This document shows, piece after piece, positions 4,634 through 30,335 of a DNA stretch of 64,000 nucleotides. Both the position numbers and the translations under genes were made by a program. A model generated the notes under the pieces. The model was not told where the DNA came from. It saw nothing but the letters and a program-made list of their open reading frames with translations, and made no database searches. This DNA is from Oligoflexia bacterium. Lineage in GTDB: Bacteria; Bdellovibrionota; UBA1018. Each line of letters opens with the position of its first letter. Position 1 is the first letter of the stretch. The DNA lies in contig CAIZRG010000017.1 of NCBI GenBank assembly GCA_903935335.1, positions 1 through 64,000 on the forward strand. Reading direction: 5' to 3'.

Positions 4634-5764
4634 CTAGGCAAAGTCTTCAGTCACGTGAGGTCGTCCATTCCAAATTTTAAGACTAGCTTGGGCTTTTCCA
4701 TCAACGTACTCGATAAAAGCATAGGTTCTGAGAATTTTATGTCCCAAAGTCGACATATCTAAACTAGTAATGGGAATCCATGTCCCTGTATTGATATACT
4801 GTTTTCCACCCGGAAAGATCCGGGAAGCAGCTTGGTGATTATGACCCAAAATCACGATATCAAAGGCTAAATGATCCCGATCAGGATCAGTCAACTGCGA
4901 TTCAACCATTTCTTCTAGGGAGGGTCGATGAAAAATCTCAAGAATGAGAAGAAAAGTCTTTCTTAAACGAGCAAACCTCATAGGATGAGAAATAAATCTC
5001 ATTTTAATAAAAAACCAAGCAGCATAAATTCCATTCATTAGGAAAAACATAGGCTCTAAGAGCAAGGATAAACGAATGTAGAGCCTAAAAGGCTGAACTT
5101 GATTAATATAGCTTCGCTGGAGTTTGACACGATTGACAAATCCAAGAACAAAAAAGCTACCAAAAGGTAAATTTTGAATTTTCTTAATCCCTTGCTTTGT
5201 TTTACGCTCAATAAACAAATTTTTTTCATCAAAATGATTAATCACTTCGTACTGATGCCCATGATCAATACATATCCGATCAAAAATATATCGATCTTTT
5301 TGAAATTGAACTTGGTCTGGACTCTGTGGATTCAGTCTTTCAACAATCAATGATTGAACCTGCGGCCAAAGCAAAGCCGCATCATGATTCCCCCAACGAA
5401 ATACAATTTTCTTGCCTCGCTTTAAAAAAAGTTGAAGAGCATTAAAAACAATTGGATGCCCTTCAAGAATCGACTGAAATTTCAAAACAGCAGCAGGTTC
5501 TTCTACTTCTAAAGGAAACTCTAATACATCGACTGACATCTTTTTTTCAGGAATGGGAATAACAGCCAGAGGATCAAAAAAATCCCCATTAATCACCAAT
5601 TCAACATCATAGTGCTCATAGCTCCCAGTACTATAAAACTCAAGGAACTCCTGAAATCGATCATCTTCATGAAAATCCTCTAAAGGATTTTTTCGACCAC
5701 TTTTGAGCCACTTTCCGAGTGAAAGATGAAAGTCACTAACAACAAGCTTTATTTTGTAGAGCAC
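4634..5764 (-). CDS. Calcineurin-like metallophosphoesterase
   Basis: A 376-aa protein with the metallophosphoesterase metal-ligand blocks in order: SDFHLS (residue 10), NGDFFD (about 60), RWGNHDA (about 123), DHGHQYE (about 167) and ILGHNHQ (about 318), followed by YINTGTW. The arrangement recalls LpxH/YkuE-type enzymes, but the protein is much longer. The extra middle part contains hydrophobic stretches around residues 210-250 that could contact a membrane. No signal peptide is seen, so it is probably cytoplasmic or peripheral on the inner membrane. The substrate cannot be read from the sequence; a phospholipid or UDP-sugar lipid phosphoester is possible. It converges on the carboxyltransferase gene. 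Confidence 0.85.
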   Translation of the reverse strand: MLYKIKLVVSDFHLSLGKWLKSGRKNPLEDFHEDDRFQEFLEFYSTGSYEHYDVELVINGDFFDPLAVIPIPEKKMSVDVLEFPLEVEEPAAVLKFQSILEGHPIVFNALQLFLKRGKKIVFRWGNHDAALLWPQVQSLIVERLNPQSPDQVQFQKDRYIFDRICIDHGHQYEVINHFDEKNLFIERKTKQGIKKIQNLPFGSFFVLGFVNRVKLQRSYINQVQPFRLYIRLSLLLEPMFFLMNGIYAAWFFIKMRFISHPMRFARLRKTFLLILEIFHRPSLEEMVESQLTDPDRDHLAFDIVILGHNHQAASRIFPGGKQYINTGTWIPITSLDMSTLGHKILRTYAFIEYVDGKAQASLKIWNGRPHVTEDFA

Positions 5765-5782: not shown

Positions 5783-6037
5783 TTACTGCTTGTTAGCACC
5801 TTGGGCTTTTGATTCTTGAAATAGTACTTCCTTAGCTTCCTCAATAGACGTAATCTCAGGCTTCTTTAAATCTGGATTATTAGTGTTTGCTATCTTTTCA
5901 CATTCCTTACATTCAGTTTCTCCAGTTTGATCTGCTGCATTTGCAATCGGCAAGTAGCTTATCCCTAAAAATCCACCCAGAACAAAACCTAACGCGATTA
6001 AATTTATTGATTTTTTTAAATTCTTGAATGTGATCAT
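5783..6037 (-). CDS. Small secreted protein of unknown function
   Basis: An 84-aa product with a Sec signal peptide: a Lys-rich start (ITFKNLKKS), a hydrophobic core (LIALGFVLGGFLG) and a likely cleavage after ANA at about residue 35. The mature part is about 50 residues, acidic, and includes a close cysteine pair, CKEC, suggesting metal binding or a disulfide. A GGGGG ribosome site precedes the ATG at good spacing. It lies 18 bases upstream of the metallophosphoesterase in the same orientation, so the two may be co-transcribed. No family is recognised. Confidence 0.7.
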   Translation of the reverse strand: MITFKNLKKSINLIALGFVLGGFLGISYLPIANAADQTGETECKECEKIANTNNPDLKKPEITSIEEAKEVLFQESKAQGANKQ

Positions 6038-6196
6038 TTTTTTATACCCCCAGATTTAGATTTTATTTAATTTTACAGCACTTTACTTCTTCATGTCAAC
6101 TCATCCTAAAAAATAGTTTAATCAAATTGATTTTATGCTATTATGCTTTCCTCACTGTTCAATCAATTTGGAAAAATTCTTTTAGTGGAGACAAGC

Positions 6197-7420
6197 ATGA
6201 TTTTAAAGCCAATTCACTTCTTTTGTTTTCATTTATTTATTTCGTTTATTTTAATTCCGTATTCTTCAGAAGCTTTTCAGCACCAGTTCCACCCCGAAAT
6301 AAAACCAGCTCTAGGATATGGATTAAACGTGAAAAACCCGAATCAATCTTACCCGAATTGTTATGAGTTCCGTCATTTTAAAAGTCAATTTTACAATACC
6401 TTCTCCTACACTTCGAAAGTAATCGAGTCACAGGCGGATCTCAATCGAGAATTAGGATTTTCATCTCTCATGGATGCTTATTATCTATTTCACCAGGTTC
6501 ACCAGGGCCCAAGCAAAATACTCTTTAATTACAAACCGTTATCTAACCGAGAGAGTCTTACCTGGCTCGTTGCTGCTCAACAAAAAATGGAGTTAGATTT
6601 TCTTAAAAATCTATTCCTAAGACATGAATACCATAATCTTTCAGTAAAAGAGCTTTCACAAACCTGTGGACCAGAAATTGTAACAGAGCAGCACAAAACA
6701 GTCTCTATTTTCTTACTCATGACTTTCCATGGGGTTTCATCAGAAATCAAAGAACTATTTAAAAGCACCTTAAGTGATCTTGATCCAAAAACTCTAACAC
6801 AGGAAGGAACGACTACAAAAGAAGTAACTCGAATTCTAGAAATAGCTCTACTCAGAAAAGAACTTGAAGCTTATGCTTTTTATTTTGAAAACAATAAAAT
6901 TATCCCAATCCATCAGGTCACATCAAATACCTTTGATCGATCAAAGTTTCATATCAACGAAGCTCTTCAAATGATGAAAAACGGACCTCAAGAGCTTCTC
7001 TACAGACTTCAAGGTACTCCCACTTTATTTAAAACTCTTCCTATTGAAAAAATTTTAAATCAATCGGGATCTTCTTTCGAGCCCCCTATAGAACCCAAGG
7101 AGGATCTTAAGAAGAACGAAATACATGCTAGCAAAATTGAAAAAATATACAATAACTCCGTATTTGTTTTGAATCAAATAAATCGATCAACTAAAATAAC
7201 CAGCACAATTTCTCAAGAATTTCCAACAGAAATAATAATTAAATCAGAATGCAACTTATGCACTTACCAAAAAGCATTCGAACTCCTTCAAGAAAGAGGG
7301 AGAAAGTGCTGGGCGGAGAACACATCAGAATCCTGTGAAACTCTAGATATTATGAATGAATTTTTTAAAACTGATTCAATCTTAAAAACCTTAAACGCCC
7401 CCTCTGAATCTCTACACTAA
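6197..7420 (+). CDS. Secreted protein of unknown function
   Basis: Reading from the ATG at 6197 (GGAG at 6187-6190) gives 407 aa. The frame is open back to 6143, but the upstream ATG lacks a ribosome site and would bury the signal peptide. Residues 1-27 form a signal peptide (PIHFFCFHLFISFILIPYSSEA). The mature protein is hydrophilic and mostly helical in appearance, with a CNLCTY cysteine pair and further cysteines near the C-terminus. No domain is recognised. Its stop codon overlaps that of the convergent YD-repeat gene (the shared bases are CTAA at 7417-7420). Confidence 0.75.
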   Translation: MILKPIHFFCFHLFISFILIPYSSEAFQHQFHPEIKPALGYGLNVKNPNQSYPNCYEFRHFKSQFYNTFSYTSKVIESQADLNRELGFSSLMDAYYLFHQVHQGPSKILFNYKPLSNRESLTWLVAAQQKMELDFLKNLFLRHEYHNLSVKELSQTCGPEIVTEQHKTVSIFLLMTFHGVSSEIKELFKSTLSDLDPKTLTQEGTTTKEVTRILEIALLRKELEAYAFYFENNKIIPIHQVTSNTFDRSKFHINEALQMMKNGPQELLYRLQGTPTLFKTLPIEKILNQSGSSFEPPIEPKEDLKKNEIHASKIEKIYNNSVFVLNQINRSTKITSTISQEFPTEIIIKSECNLCTYQKAFELLQERGRKCWAENTSESCETLDIMNEFFKTDSILKTLNAPSESLH

Positions 7421-26770: not shown

Positions 26771-28408
26771 ATGATGAAGGAAGTAGCATCTCTGCAAAAA
26801 CAAGCCATACAGCTTAGACTTCTTAATGAACTGTCCACCCATCTGCAAAGCTTATTGGAGTCGGATCATTTCTACCAAGAAATTGTAAATATCATTAAAA
26901 GTTATTTTAATTATTACTGCATTCATATTTGGAGTGTCAGCTCTGATCATTCAGCAACCCTCGAGGCTCAAGCGGGAGCCTATCGGAACCACCTCAAAAT
27001 TGGGTACACTTTAGCCCCCTACCAAGGGATCAACAGTGTTGTCATTAAAAGAAAAAAAAGTTACCTTTCCAATGACTTATCAGGGGACCCTAATTACACG
27101 AACCTTTCTTTTCCAGTCATTTCTAAATCTGAGCTTTGTGTCCCTATTATTAAAGACCATAAAGTAGTAGCCACTTTAAACATTGAGAGTGACCATAAAA
27201 ACGCATTTGATGAGGACGATATTGTCACCCTGGAAGCCATTGCTTCTCAAGTAGCTGTATCTATGACTAATCAAAAATTATACAGTGAAGCCAAGAGTTT
27301 TAATAAAAAGCTCCAGCAAGCTGTTGAAGAGAAAACCCTTGAACTCAGACAAGCTCACCAAAGAATTTTGGAACAACAAAGGCTTCTTCAAAAGGAAAAT
27401 AAGGCTTTAAAAACTCTAGTGAACCAGGACAACAAAGGGATGGGCATTGTAGGTCAGAGCCCCTCTGTTCTGAGTGTTTTAGCAATGGTTGACAAGATTG
27501 CCCCAACTACAGCAACAGTTCTGATTCAGGGAGAAAGTGGAACAGGTAAGGAACTCATTGCACGAAGGCTTCATTTCAAAAGCTTAAGGTTAGATCGACC
27601 TTACGTCATAGTCAATTGTGGAGCTCTGCAAGAATCACTTCTTGAGTCAGAGTTATTTGGCCATGAAAAAGGGGCTTTTACGGGTGCTATCTTACAAAAA
27701 ATGGGCCTTTGTGAAACTGCAGATGATGGAACTTTGTTTCTGGATGAAATTGGTGAAATGTCTTTAGGGATTCAGACTAAACTCCTTCGTTTCCTTCAAG
27801 AAGGAGAGTTTTATCGCATTGGCGGTAAACGCCCAATTCGTGTTGATGTTCGAGTTCTCAGTGCTACCAATCGCGATCTAGAAAAAGAAGTCAAGGAGGG
27901 TCGATTTCGGGAAGATCTTTTCTATCGTCTCAACACGATCACACTGCGAATGCCTCCTCTCAGAAAACGAAAAGAAGATATCCCAGATTTAGTTAACTTT
28001 TTTTTGAAGCATTCTAGATTTGGTGGAGGGACTCAGCAAATTAAGCGGATCGACCCACGTGTTATCGAAGTGTTTTCAAATTATAGCTGGCCAGGCAATA
28101 TTCGGGAGCTTCAAAACACGATTGAGCGACTGAAAATTCTTTCTGAAAACAATGAAATCCGCCTAGGGGACCTTCCCTTTACAATGAGGGCTCCCAAAAT
28201 ACGGCCAGAATCCCAAGACTTTGCCTTAGACTCACCCCTAGAGGATGTCGAGAAGGGACATATTCTGAGAACTCTTTCCTATCACCAAGGGAATAAAACA
28301 AAAACAGCCCAAAGTTTAGGGATTACAATCAAAACGCTCTACAATAAATTGCACCGATATGGAATACTTCAAAGTTCAACGGAAACAGCTGAAAACACAG
28401 TTCAATAA
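26771..28408 (+). CDS. Sigma-54-dependent transcriptional activator with GAF sensor domain
   Basis: A 545-aa bacterial enhancer-binding protein. A GAF domain occupies residues about 20-170 and leads into a long coiled coil (about 175-225). The AAA+ domain (about 230-460) has Walker A GESGTGKE (253-260), the sigma-54 contact loop GAFTGA (301-306), Walker B LFLDEIGEM and the arginine-finger region. The end is a Fis-type HTH (NKTKTAQSLGITIKTLYNKL). All ATPase and sigma-54-binding motifs are intact, so it should be active. Two adjacent ATGs open the frame, and either may be used. Target genes are not evident in the window. Confidence 0.93.
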   Translation: MMKEVASLQKQAIQLRLLNELSTHLQSLLESDHFYQEIVNIIKSYFNYYCIHIWSVSSDHSATLEAQAGAYRNHLKIGYTLAPYQGINSVVIKRKKSYLSNDLSGDPNYTNLSFPVISKSELCVPIIKDHKVVATLNIESDHKNAFDEDDIVTLEAIASQVAVSMTNQKLYSEAKSFNKKLQQAVEEKTLELRQAHQRILEQQRLLQKENKALKTLVNQDNKGMGIVGQSPSVLSVLAMVDKIAPTTATVLIQGESGTGKELIARRLHFKSLRLDRPYVIVNCGALQESLLESELFGHEKGAFTGAILQKMGLCETADDGTLFLDEIGEMSLGIQTKLLRFLQEGEFYRIGGKRPIRVDVRVLSATNRDLEKEVKEGRFREDLFYRLNTITLRMPPLRKRKEDIPDLVNFFLKHSRFGGGTQQIKRIDPRVIEVFSNYSWPGNIRELQNTIERLKILSENNEIRLGDLPFTMRAPKIRPESQDFALDSPLEDVEKGHILRTLSYHQGNKTKTAQSLGITIKTLYNKLHRYGILQSSTETAENTVQ

Positions 28409-28432
28409 AAATAAATAACAAGGGAGATGATT

Positions 28433-28849
28433 ATGGCTACAAAAGCACAGGGCAAAACAGCCCCAGCAAAAAAAGAGGTAACTAAAAAACCATCAGCACC
28501 CACGACTGAAAAAGGAACTAAAAAAGCTTCAAAATCAAACGATAAAGTGGGTGAGCTTCAACAAGAAAGTGAAGTCTCGTCGATTGATCCAGATGAACTA
28601 GAAGAACAACAAGATGCTGCAGCAGCTGAGTCTTCCCACTCAGAGGGAAATGCAGCAGCTCTAGCAGCGGCTACTGGAACACCCACTGAAATGTCTGCTT
28701 CATTCAAAAACTTTAGACATCATCCAGATATGGAAAATTTTTATCGGTTCATTTTCGATAACGATTTACGCCATGAAGCATTAGCCATTATCGATACAAT
28801 CATTCATGAAAAACAACAGCGTAAATTATCAAAAATGGCGAAACCTTAA
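28433..28849 (+). CDS. Ala/Lys-rich protein of unknown function
   Basis: A 138-aa product. The frame opens at ATG 28427, but AGGGAG at 28421-28426 is correctly spaced only for ATG 28433. The first 60 residues are low-complexity and rich in Lys, Ala, Thr and Pro (KAQGKTAPAKKEVTKK), followed by an acidic Gln/Glu/Ala stretch. The last 50 residues look folded and conserved-like (NFRHHPDMENFYRFIFDND, then HEALAIIDTIIHEKQQ). The tail resembles a small helical domain. The basic N-terminus could bind nucleic acid. No family is recognised. The purA-like gene follows after 22 bases. Confidence 0.75.
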   Translation: MATKAQGKTAPAKKEVTKKPSAPTTEKGTKKASKSNDKVGELQQESEVSSIDPDELEEQQDAAAAESSHSEGNAAALAAATGTPTEMSASFKNFRHHPDMENFYRFIFDNDLRHEALAIIDTIIHEKQQRKLSKMAKP

Positions 28850-28871: not shown

Positions 28872-30137
28872 ATGAGTATCAACAGGATTATCATTGGAAC
28901 GCAGTGGGGGAATGAAGGCAAAGGAAAGGTTGTTGATTTCTATAGTTCCCAAGCCGAGTACATTGTTCGGTACCCAGGTGACAGTAACACCCATCATTTC
29001 ATCCCAAAAGGGGCTCTACAATCTGAGAAAACTTGGCTCATTGGAAATGGTGCAGTGATTGATCCCATTGTGTTTTTGAATAAAATAAGCCTATTGAATG
29101 CAGCATCTGTCTTTTCGTCTGCCCCACATGAGACCATCCGAGTGAGTGAACGAGCTCACTTGATCTTCTCTTATCACCGAAAGCTCGATCAGCTGCGCAA
29201 AGAACGGGATTCAAGAGATAACATTGAAACAACGATGCTAGGAGTTGGTCCAGCCTATGAAGATAAGGCTGCTCACCGAGGCATTCAAGTGATTGATTTA
29301 CTTCATCCCAAACGACTCTACGAAAAACTCAAAATTGCCATCGAAGAGAAAAATATTTTATTTAAGTATCATTTTAAAGCTGATGAAATAGAATTAGAGC
29401 CTCTTTATAGTTCCTGCCTACAACTTGGCAAACAGCTAGAACCCTTTGCAACAGATGTGCAAAGAGTTCTGACTGAGGCTCTCAAGCAAAAACGCCCTCT
29501 TTTATTTGAAGGCACTCAAGGAACTCTCCTTGACGTTGATCATGGAACTTACCCTGACGTAACCTGCTTTAATACAGTAGCTAGCCATGCGTTTACAGCT
29601 TCAGGACTTGGAGTTCCTGCAGTAGCACCCCAAGTCATTGGAATTGCAAAGGCGTATACGACTCGAGTGGGGAGAGGACCCTTCCCAACAGAAATTGAAA
29701 AGACTGATTCTGAAATTGCTCAAAAGATCTGTGAATTGGGAGATGAATTTGACGCAAATCAAAGCAAACCCAGACGAGTGGGTTGGTTAGATTTAGTTGC
29801 ATTAAAGCATGCTACTGAGGTGAATGGATTAACAGGTCTTGCTTTAATGAAAGCAGATATTTTACAAGATTTTGATTATGTGAAAATTTGCACAAGTTAC
29901 CGTTTAGCAGGAACCACTCTTTACGAGCTTCCTGCTTGTTTTGAGGATTACAAGGAGCTGGAACCTGCCTATGAGGTTCTGCCAGGGTCGACGAAGTTAG
30001 ACCCTCATCAGATTCATAGCCGAATCGACTTACCCATTGAACTGCAGACCTACATACGCGTCATCGAAGATTTTTTAGGCATTCCAATCATTCTACTTAG
30101 TATAGGCCCACAAAAAGAGGAAACCTTAGTTCTTTAG
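28872..30137 (+). CDS. Adenylosuccinate synthetase-like protein with altered catalytic residues
   Basis: A 421-aa PurA homologue. Retained are the P-loop frame GTQWGxEGKGK (9-19), the IMP-site block GVGPAYEDKAAHRG, EGTQGTLLDVDHGTYP with VTCFNT, AYTTRVGRGPFPTE, and the guanine-recognition motifs KAD (about 326-328) and SIGP near the end. Changed are three functional elements known from E. coli PurA. The catalytic base Asp13 is Asn14 here. The loop carrying His41 (GGHNAGHT) is missing: only GDSN stands before THHFIPKGA, about 12 residues shorter. The aspartate-binding loop TTGR is replaced by NQSK (about 293-302). Either the protein makes another product, or it works differently, or it is inactive. 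A normal purA may exist elsewhere in the genome. Confidence 0.88.
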   Translation: MSINRIIIGTQWGNEGKGKVVDFYSSQAEYIVRYPGDSNTHHFIPKGALQSEKTWLIGNGAVIDPIVFLNKISLLNAASVFSSAPHETIRVSERAHLIFSYHRKLDQLRKERDSRDNIETTMLGVGPAYEDKAAHRGIQVIDLLHPKRLYEKLKIAIEEKNILFKYHFKADEIELEPLYSSCLQLGKQLEPFATDVQRVLTEALKQKRPLLFEGTQGTLLDVDHGTYPDVTCFNTVASHAFTASGLGVPAVAPQVIGIAKAYTTRVGRGPFPTEIEKTDSEIAQKICELGDEFDANQSKPRRVGWLDLVALKHATEVNGLTGLALMKADILQDFDYVKICTSYRLAGTTLYELPACFEDYKELEPAYEVLPGSTKLDPHQIHSRIDLPIELQTYIRVIEDFLGIPIILLSIGPQKEETLVL

Positions 30138-30259: not shown

Positions 30260-30335
30260 GAGCCATTAGCTCAGTCGGTAGAGCATCACACTTTTAATGT
30301 GAGGGTCGATGGTTCGAATCCATCATGGCTCACCA
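30260..30335 (+). tRNA. tRNA-Lys (anticodon TTT), CCA encoded
   Basis: A full cloverleaf can be drawn by eye. The acceptor stem GAGCCAT pairs with ATGGCTC. The D arm is GCTC/GAGC with an AGTCGGTA loop, and the anticodon stem is TCACA/TGTGA around loop CTTTTAA. The variable loop is GGGTC, and the T arm GATGG/CCATC carries the invariant TTCGAAT loop. Discriminator A is followed by an encoded CCA at 30333-30335. The anticodon TTT reads lysine AAA and AAG codons. It is a single tRNA between the purA-like gene and bolA. Confidence 0.97.

Follow-up and report, generated by a model that had tools for sequence, protein, structure and literature searches.

Adenylosuccinate synthetase (PurA; EC 6.3.4.4; PF00709) is among the most conserved metabolic enzymes, and its catalytic base and acid are Asp13 and His41. 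The phage enzymes PurZ and PurZ0 are 2-aminoadenylosuccinate synthetases. Asp13 is conserved in 99% of the prokaryotic PurA sequences surveyed (PMC12884076), phage PurZ has Ser at the Asp13 site and keeps the tip of the aspartate loop (PMC8342488, PMC12884076), and the ligand contacts of H. pylori PurA have been published (PMC11276676).

Here we describe a purA homologue located in a window of 64,000 nucleotides, i.e. the whole stretch of DNA that was analysed (contig CAIZRG010000017.1 of the Oligoflexia bacterium assembly GCA_903935335.1). The genome that the window belongs to is called G000 below. A preliminary description had proposed a special function for the encoded protein, either as a ligase that uses a different amine or nucleotide, or as a nucleotide-binding regulator.

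Identity and genomic position of the gene

The homologue and its neighbours are:

26771..28408, + strand: GAF/sigma-54 activator; its place upstream of purA is conserved in relatives and serves as a synteny marker
28427..28849, + strand: ORF of 140 aa, conserved upstream neighbour; purA starts 22 bp downstream of it
28872..30137, + strand: purA homologue, 421 aa, ATG start, intact frame; the only PF00709 gene of G000
30260..30335, + strand: tRNA-Lys(TTT), downstream of purA

In a profile search, the PF00709 match spans positions 1-415/416 with 413 bits. The predicted structure (AlphaFold, pLDDT 81.5) superimposes on PurA of E. coli and Bacillus with a Foldseek TM score of 0.90; the alignment behind the model contained canonical relatives, and this biases it towards a PurA fold. 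One NCBIfam equivalog cut-off was passed (429 vs 402 bits); TIGR00184 gave a score of 385, below its cut-off of 395.6. The P-loop lysines, Asn38, Gln224, Thr239 and Arg305 are kept. The preliminary description had left room for a second, canonical purA elsewhere in the genome. However, no second PF00709 gene was found in G000, which carries only the copy at 28872-30137.

In relatives purA is preceded by a thiolase gene, the sigma-54 activator and the small ORF, in this order; in G002 and G021, the two relatives read, a class-V aminotransferase gene separates the small ORF from purA. This order is preserved in the window, except for the aminotransferase gene, which is missing. Since the gene order is common to the relatives, the window gene is the ancestral purA at its original site, neither of phage origin nor a transferred paralogue.

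Lesions in the active site

The following sites of the protein are changed or kept:

28896..28928, + strand: P-loop GTQWGNEGKGK, in which Asn (codon AAT, 28911-28913) replaces Asp13; other P-loop residues kept
28974..29000, + strand: PGDSNTHHF, junction at which 12 residues are deleted in frame (41-52 or 42-53 in E. coli numbering)
29223..29252, + strand: IMP/aspartate loop IETTMLGVGP, replacing IGTTxRGIGP (G127E, R131L)
29274..29276, + strand: R143H; in PurA this Arg reaches into the active site of the neighbouring subunit
29751..29774, + strand: aspartate-binding loop DANQSKPR, replacing GATTGRPR
29850..29858, + strand: KAD (Lys331/Asp333), guanine-recognition motif, kept
30099..30110, + strand: SIGP, GTP-site motif, kept

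An alignment with 30 relatives and E. coli PurA confirmed most of what the preliminary description had read from the sequence: Asn (AAT codon) in place of the P-loop Asp, NQSK in place of the TTGR loop (ATTGR to ANQSK) and the retained nucleotide motifs KAD, SIGP, GVGPAYEDK and EGTQGTLLD, all of which are present. The shortening, given there as about 12 residues, amounts to exactly 12 residues that are absent between Asn38 and Ile55-Pro56 (aligned as YPGDSNTH------------HFIPKGA), with Gly36, Gly40 and their neighbours substituted at the junction. The claimed loss of the His41 loop holds, whereas the loss of His41 itself depends on the alignment: within N38-T-H-H a His is found at Asn38+3, which corresponds to the His41 site when residues 42-53 are taken as the deleted ones. 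Whichever alignment is chosen, the loop after NTHH is gone and Gly40 is replaced, in a region where the model confidence is <50. Changes beyond those listed earlier are G127E, R131L, R143H, S240C, S241F and R303K.

Mapped on the published contacts (PMC11276676), the residues of the GTP side are kept (the P-loop minus Asp13, K331, D333, S414 and G416), with the exception of Thr42, which lies within the deleted loop. Lost from the IMP/aspartate side are the aspartate loop, G127, R131, R303 and R143, the last of which reaches into the neighbouring subunit. Judged by known PurA chemistry, the protein has very probably lost synthetase activity.

Comparison with relatives and other genes of the genome

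Columns of the PurA alignment that are at least 97% constant across 30 relatives were taken as invariant (n=124). The window protein departs at 34 of them, 28 by substitution and 6 by deletion (28/118 invariant positions still present are thus substituted), and the other PurA sequences in the same alignment depart at 0-7%. The same test applied to further proteins of G000 yielded 0/140 departures for GuaA, 3/105 for PurH, 1/55 for PurQ and 23/269 for PurL. The lesion pattern of the window PurA is far beyond chance. In the tree, the PurA branch of G000 has a length of 0.756 substitutions per site, the median being 0.254, and for GuaA the corresponding values are 0.461 and 0.32; the speed-up of PurA beyond the general rate of the genome is roughly two-fold.

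D13, H41 and TTGR are kept in every related-genome PurA that covers these positions. The same applies, where covered, to additionally fetched relatives, among them a second family whose set of purine genes is reduced. Because all covering relatives keep these residues, the lesions represent a loss within one lineage. The relatives, to which the preliminary description had pointed with respect to Asp13 and the loop, are normal, and a reading error is not the explanation. No sister PurA sharing the lesions was found among 35 family genomes or in a GTDB contig scan, in which the peptide patterns of the window matched only in Synergistaceae. With no such sequence to pair it with, selection on the gene can be judged only indirectly and not by dN/dS.

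Two relatives deserve separate mention. G012, the sister on the tree, gave no purA or purB match, but this carries no weight, since the genome is 82% complete and the region around purB did not turn up in it. The purA of G038 (L147) has normal catalytic residues and one in-frame TAG inside the match, which makes it a pseudogene or an error.

A dismantled purine pathway

G000 is a draft genome (94% complete, 59 contigs), and its gene absences rest on searches with E. coli queries and with PurB, PurC and PurE of relatives. Neither PF10397 nor TIGR00928 had a match, and thus no purB was found. In eight relatives purB has the same neighbours. These are contiguous on contig C16 of G000, where the glycosyltransferase gene ends at 5133 and the next family gene starts at 5591, and purB is absent from the gap of about 0.46 kb between them. 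For purF, purD, purN, purM, purE and purC, E. coli queries delivered nothing convincing in G000, whereas the same queries gave scores up to 1e-107 in two relatives. The E. coli PurC query was blind even in those two, and the PurC of a relative, used instead, found no match in G000. Relatives possess one cluster purF-purD-purN-purL-purQ-purH-purM, of which G000 retains only purL-purQ-purH; these lie on one contig between unrelated genes.

Present in G000 are guaA, guaB, two hpt and adk. E. coli Apt, Add and DeoD queries gave no match, and neither did PF03219 for an ATP/ADP translocase as a source of adenine nucleotides. The preliminary description had seen the counter-case to a special function in a sole purA within a purine-prototrophic genome. 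The gene is indeed the only purA, but G000 is not a purine prototroph. Its GMP branch is intact, with GuaA free of deviations; hence IMP can be converted to GMP, whereas no known route to AMP is left, and the cell would therefore have to import adenine nucleotides or nucleosides. The losses in PurA are explained by a context that the preliminary description had left out: G000 no longer has purB, nor most of the de novo pathway for purines.

GuaB of G000 (383 aa, L068:2488-3639) lacks the CBS (Bateman) domains seen in the GuaB of a relative, which fits a changed purine balance. In PurL (L060:11943-15149, contig C18) motif residues are lost (TDNGAGGLSSSVGE -> TNNGAGGLSLSVGQ), HCK became HYQ and three residues are inserted, while the frame is open and 8-9% of the invariant positions are damaged. 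The adjacent purQ and purH look nearly normal. In three other genomes of the same family (G013, G026 and G031; 93-97% complete) purA, PF10397 purB, purH and guaA gave no matches. Purine synthesis seems to have been lost more than once in this family.

An Asn13 paralogue in Synergistaceae

In Synergistaceae we observed a PurA paralogue with an Asn13 P-loop (L036, L037, L039 at about 5977-7281, and L038). It carries D13N, H41R, R131Q, Q224D, T239M and R303E, and retains the P-loop lysine K16 and K-x-D. The gene is the last of a conserved run, transketolase - ftsE - ftsX - M23 peptidase - S41 peptidase - deacetylase - purA-like, and a normal PurA is encoded elsewhere in the same genomes. With a pairwise dN/dS of 0.04-0.12 the paralogue is strongly constrained. 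It looks like a retained pseudoenzyme, is possibly tied to cell division, and provides a precedent for a retained PurA without the usual active site, although the window protein is no close relative of it.

Discussion

We tentatively and narrowly favour, with a probability of about 0.46, that the window PurA is a retained non-synthetase, i.e. a pseudoenzyme, rather than a decaying relic. The AMP branch and most of de novo purine synthesis have been dismantled in this lineage while the ancestral purA remains. The protein, which by known PurA chemistry should no longer form adenylosuccinate, may persist as a pseudoenzyme that still folds, possibly binds GTP and has some role other than that of a synthetase, and its frame would have been held open longer than neutral decay allows. 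Of the special function suggested earlier, one part stands: an ordinary PurA is very unlikely, and a regulator that binds nucleotides survives as a candidate, as does any retained protein without catalysis in the wider sense. A reaction with a different amine or of the PurZ type is unsupported.

Invariant positions are broken at 19/50 active-site sites vs 9/68 elsewhere (Fisher p=0.002), a result that is supportive only, as the active-site class was drawn up after the changes had been seen and losses within one loop are correlated. The purA frame contains neither stop codons nor frameshifts. If all invariant changes were drift, about 109 missense changes and about 5.4-7.6 stops would be expected, while none of the latter was seen (P 0.0005-0.004, assuming a simple mutation model and comparing the window PurA with column majorities). 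A conservative hand estimate based on the non-active-site rate of 9/68 still gives about 59 missense changes and 3.6 stops (P ~0.03). The lack of stops favours some retained role and is no proof, and long weak selection followed by recent nulls would equally leave open frames. Counting against retention are the accelerated PurA branch and the relic-like erosion of invariant positions outside the active site.

It is quite possible that purA is a relic that drifts without function since the loss of the AMP branch and has not yet met a stop or frameshift. The loss of purine genes is pathway-wide, PurL is damaged as well (8-9% of invariant positions, including the motif change given above), and changes at 23% of the invariant and 23% of the 80-99% conserved positions form a near-uniform layer on normal divergence. 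However, neither stops nor frameshifts occur in purA, against an expectation of about 4-7 stops (P about 0.001-0.03), nor in purL, for which a similar number would be expected. In addition, the codon-position GC of purA is normal and lesions are more frequent in the active site. An undisrupted reading frame in purA goes along with a strongly relaxed amino-acid constraint and with changes that are commoner in the active site.

A ligase with a changed substrate, either a different amine or a different nucleotide as in PurZ, is improbable. The fold, the P-loop lysines, Asn38, Gln224, Thr239 and Arg305 are kept, and PurZ shows that the family is able to change its substrate (PMC8342488). However, the aspartate-binding loop has a different sequence, R131, R143, R303 and the P-loop Asp are lost, and no PurB is available to process a succinyl product. 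PurZ itself keeps the tip of the aspartate loop and has Ser rather than Asn, and against the PurZ profile NF038379 the window protein scores 59.5 with a cut-off of 300. A PurZ-like function was rejected as unlikely on the strength of profile score, residues and structure.

That the protein is still an unusual but functional adenylosuccinate synthetase is very improbable: it passes one NCBIfam equivalog cut-off (429 vs 402 bits) and has the His at Asn38+3, but it has lost an Asp13 that is 99% conserved across prokaryotic PurA (PMC12884076), misses TIGR00184 (385 vs 395.6) and lacks a purB partner. An assembly or sequencing artefact, or gaps that mimic gene loss, is hardly credible; the genome is indeed an incomplete draft, but many independent lesions lie in one open frame, and the old purB site and the purL-Q-H neighbourhood are each contiguous on single contigs.

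A PurA of full length whose IMP/aspartate half is lost, in a genome that has no PurB, would mark either the collapse of a pathway midway or the birth of a pseudoenzyme. The automatic profile label 'adenylosuccinate synthase' would be wrong for it. The paralogue beside ftsEX makes the idea of a retained pseudoenzyme directly testable in a second lineage. It is conceivable, if rather doubtful, that Asn13 pseudoenzymes which retain the GTP site, have lost IMP/aspartate binding and play a non-metabolic, perhaps regulatory role arose from PurA repeatedly, in this lineage and in Synergistaceae. In any case the window gene is a PurA orthologue without synthetase residues in a dismantled pathway and no new enzyme class; its product is most likely an enzyme that is broken or has been put to another use, not a novel type of ligase.

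Comparison with known systems

With PurA of E. coli and H. pylori the window protein shares the fold (TM 0.90), the length and the ancestral genomic position, as well as the P-loop lysines, the guanine-recognition K-x-D, Asn38, Gln224 and Thr239. It differs in Asn for Asp13, the 12-residue loop deletion after Asn38, the replaced aspartate loop, R131L, R143H, G127E and R303K, and in the lack of PurB in the genome. PurZ and PurZ0 likewise have a residue other than Asp at position 13. However, PurZ combines Ser with a kept aspartate-loop tip, whereas the window protein has Asn and has lost the loop, and the structural match to PurZ and PurZ0 is weak (TM about 0.5-0.6 by query length). The Synergistaceae paralogue shares the change of Asp13 to Asn, the loss of IMP/aspartate residues and the retention of Lys16 and K-x-D. 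In contrast to the window protein, to which it is only about 34% identical, it keeps the loop with His41 changed to Arg, lies in an ftsEX operon and has a normal PurA beside it in the genome; an independent origin of the two proteins is most likely.
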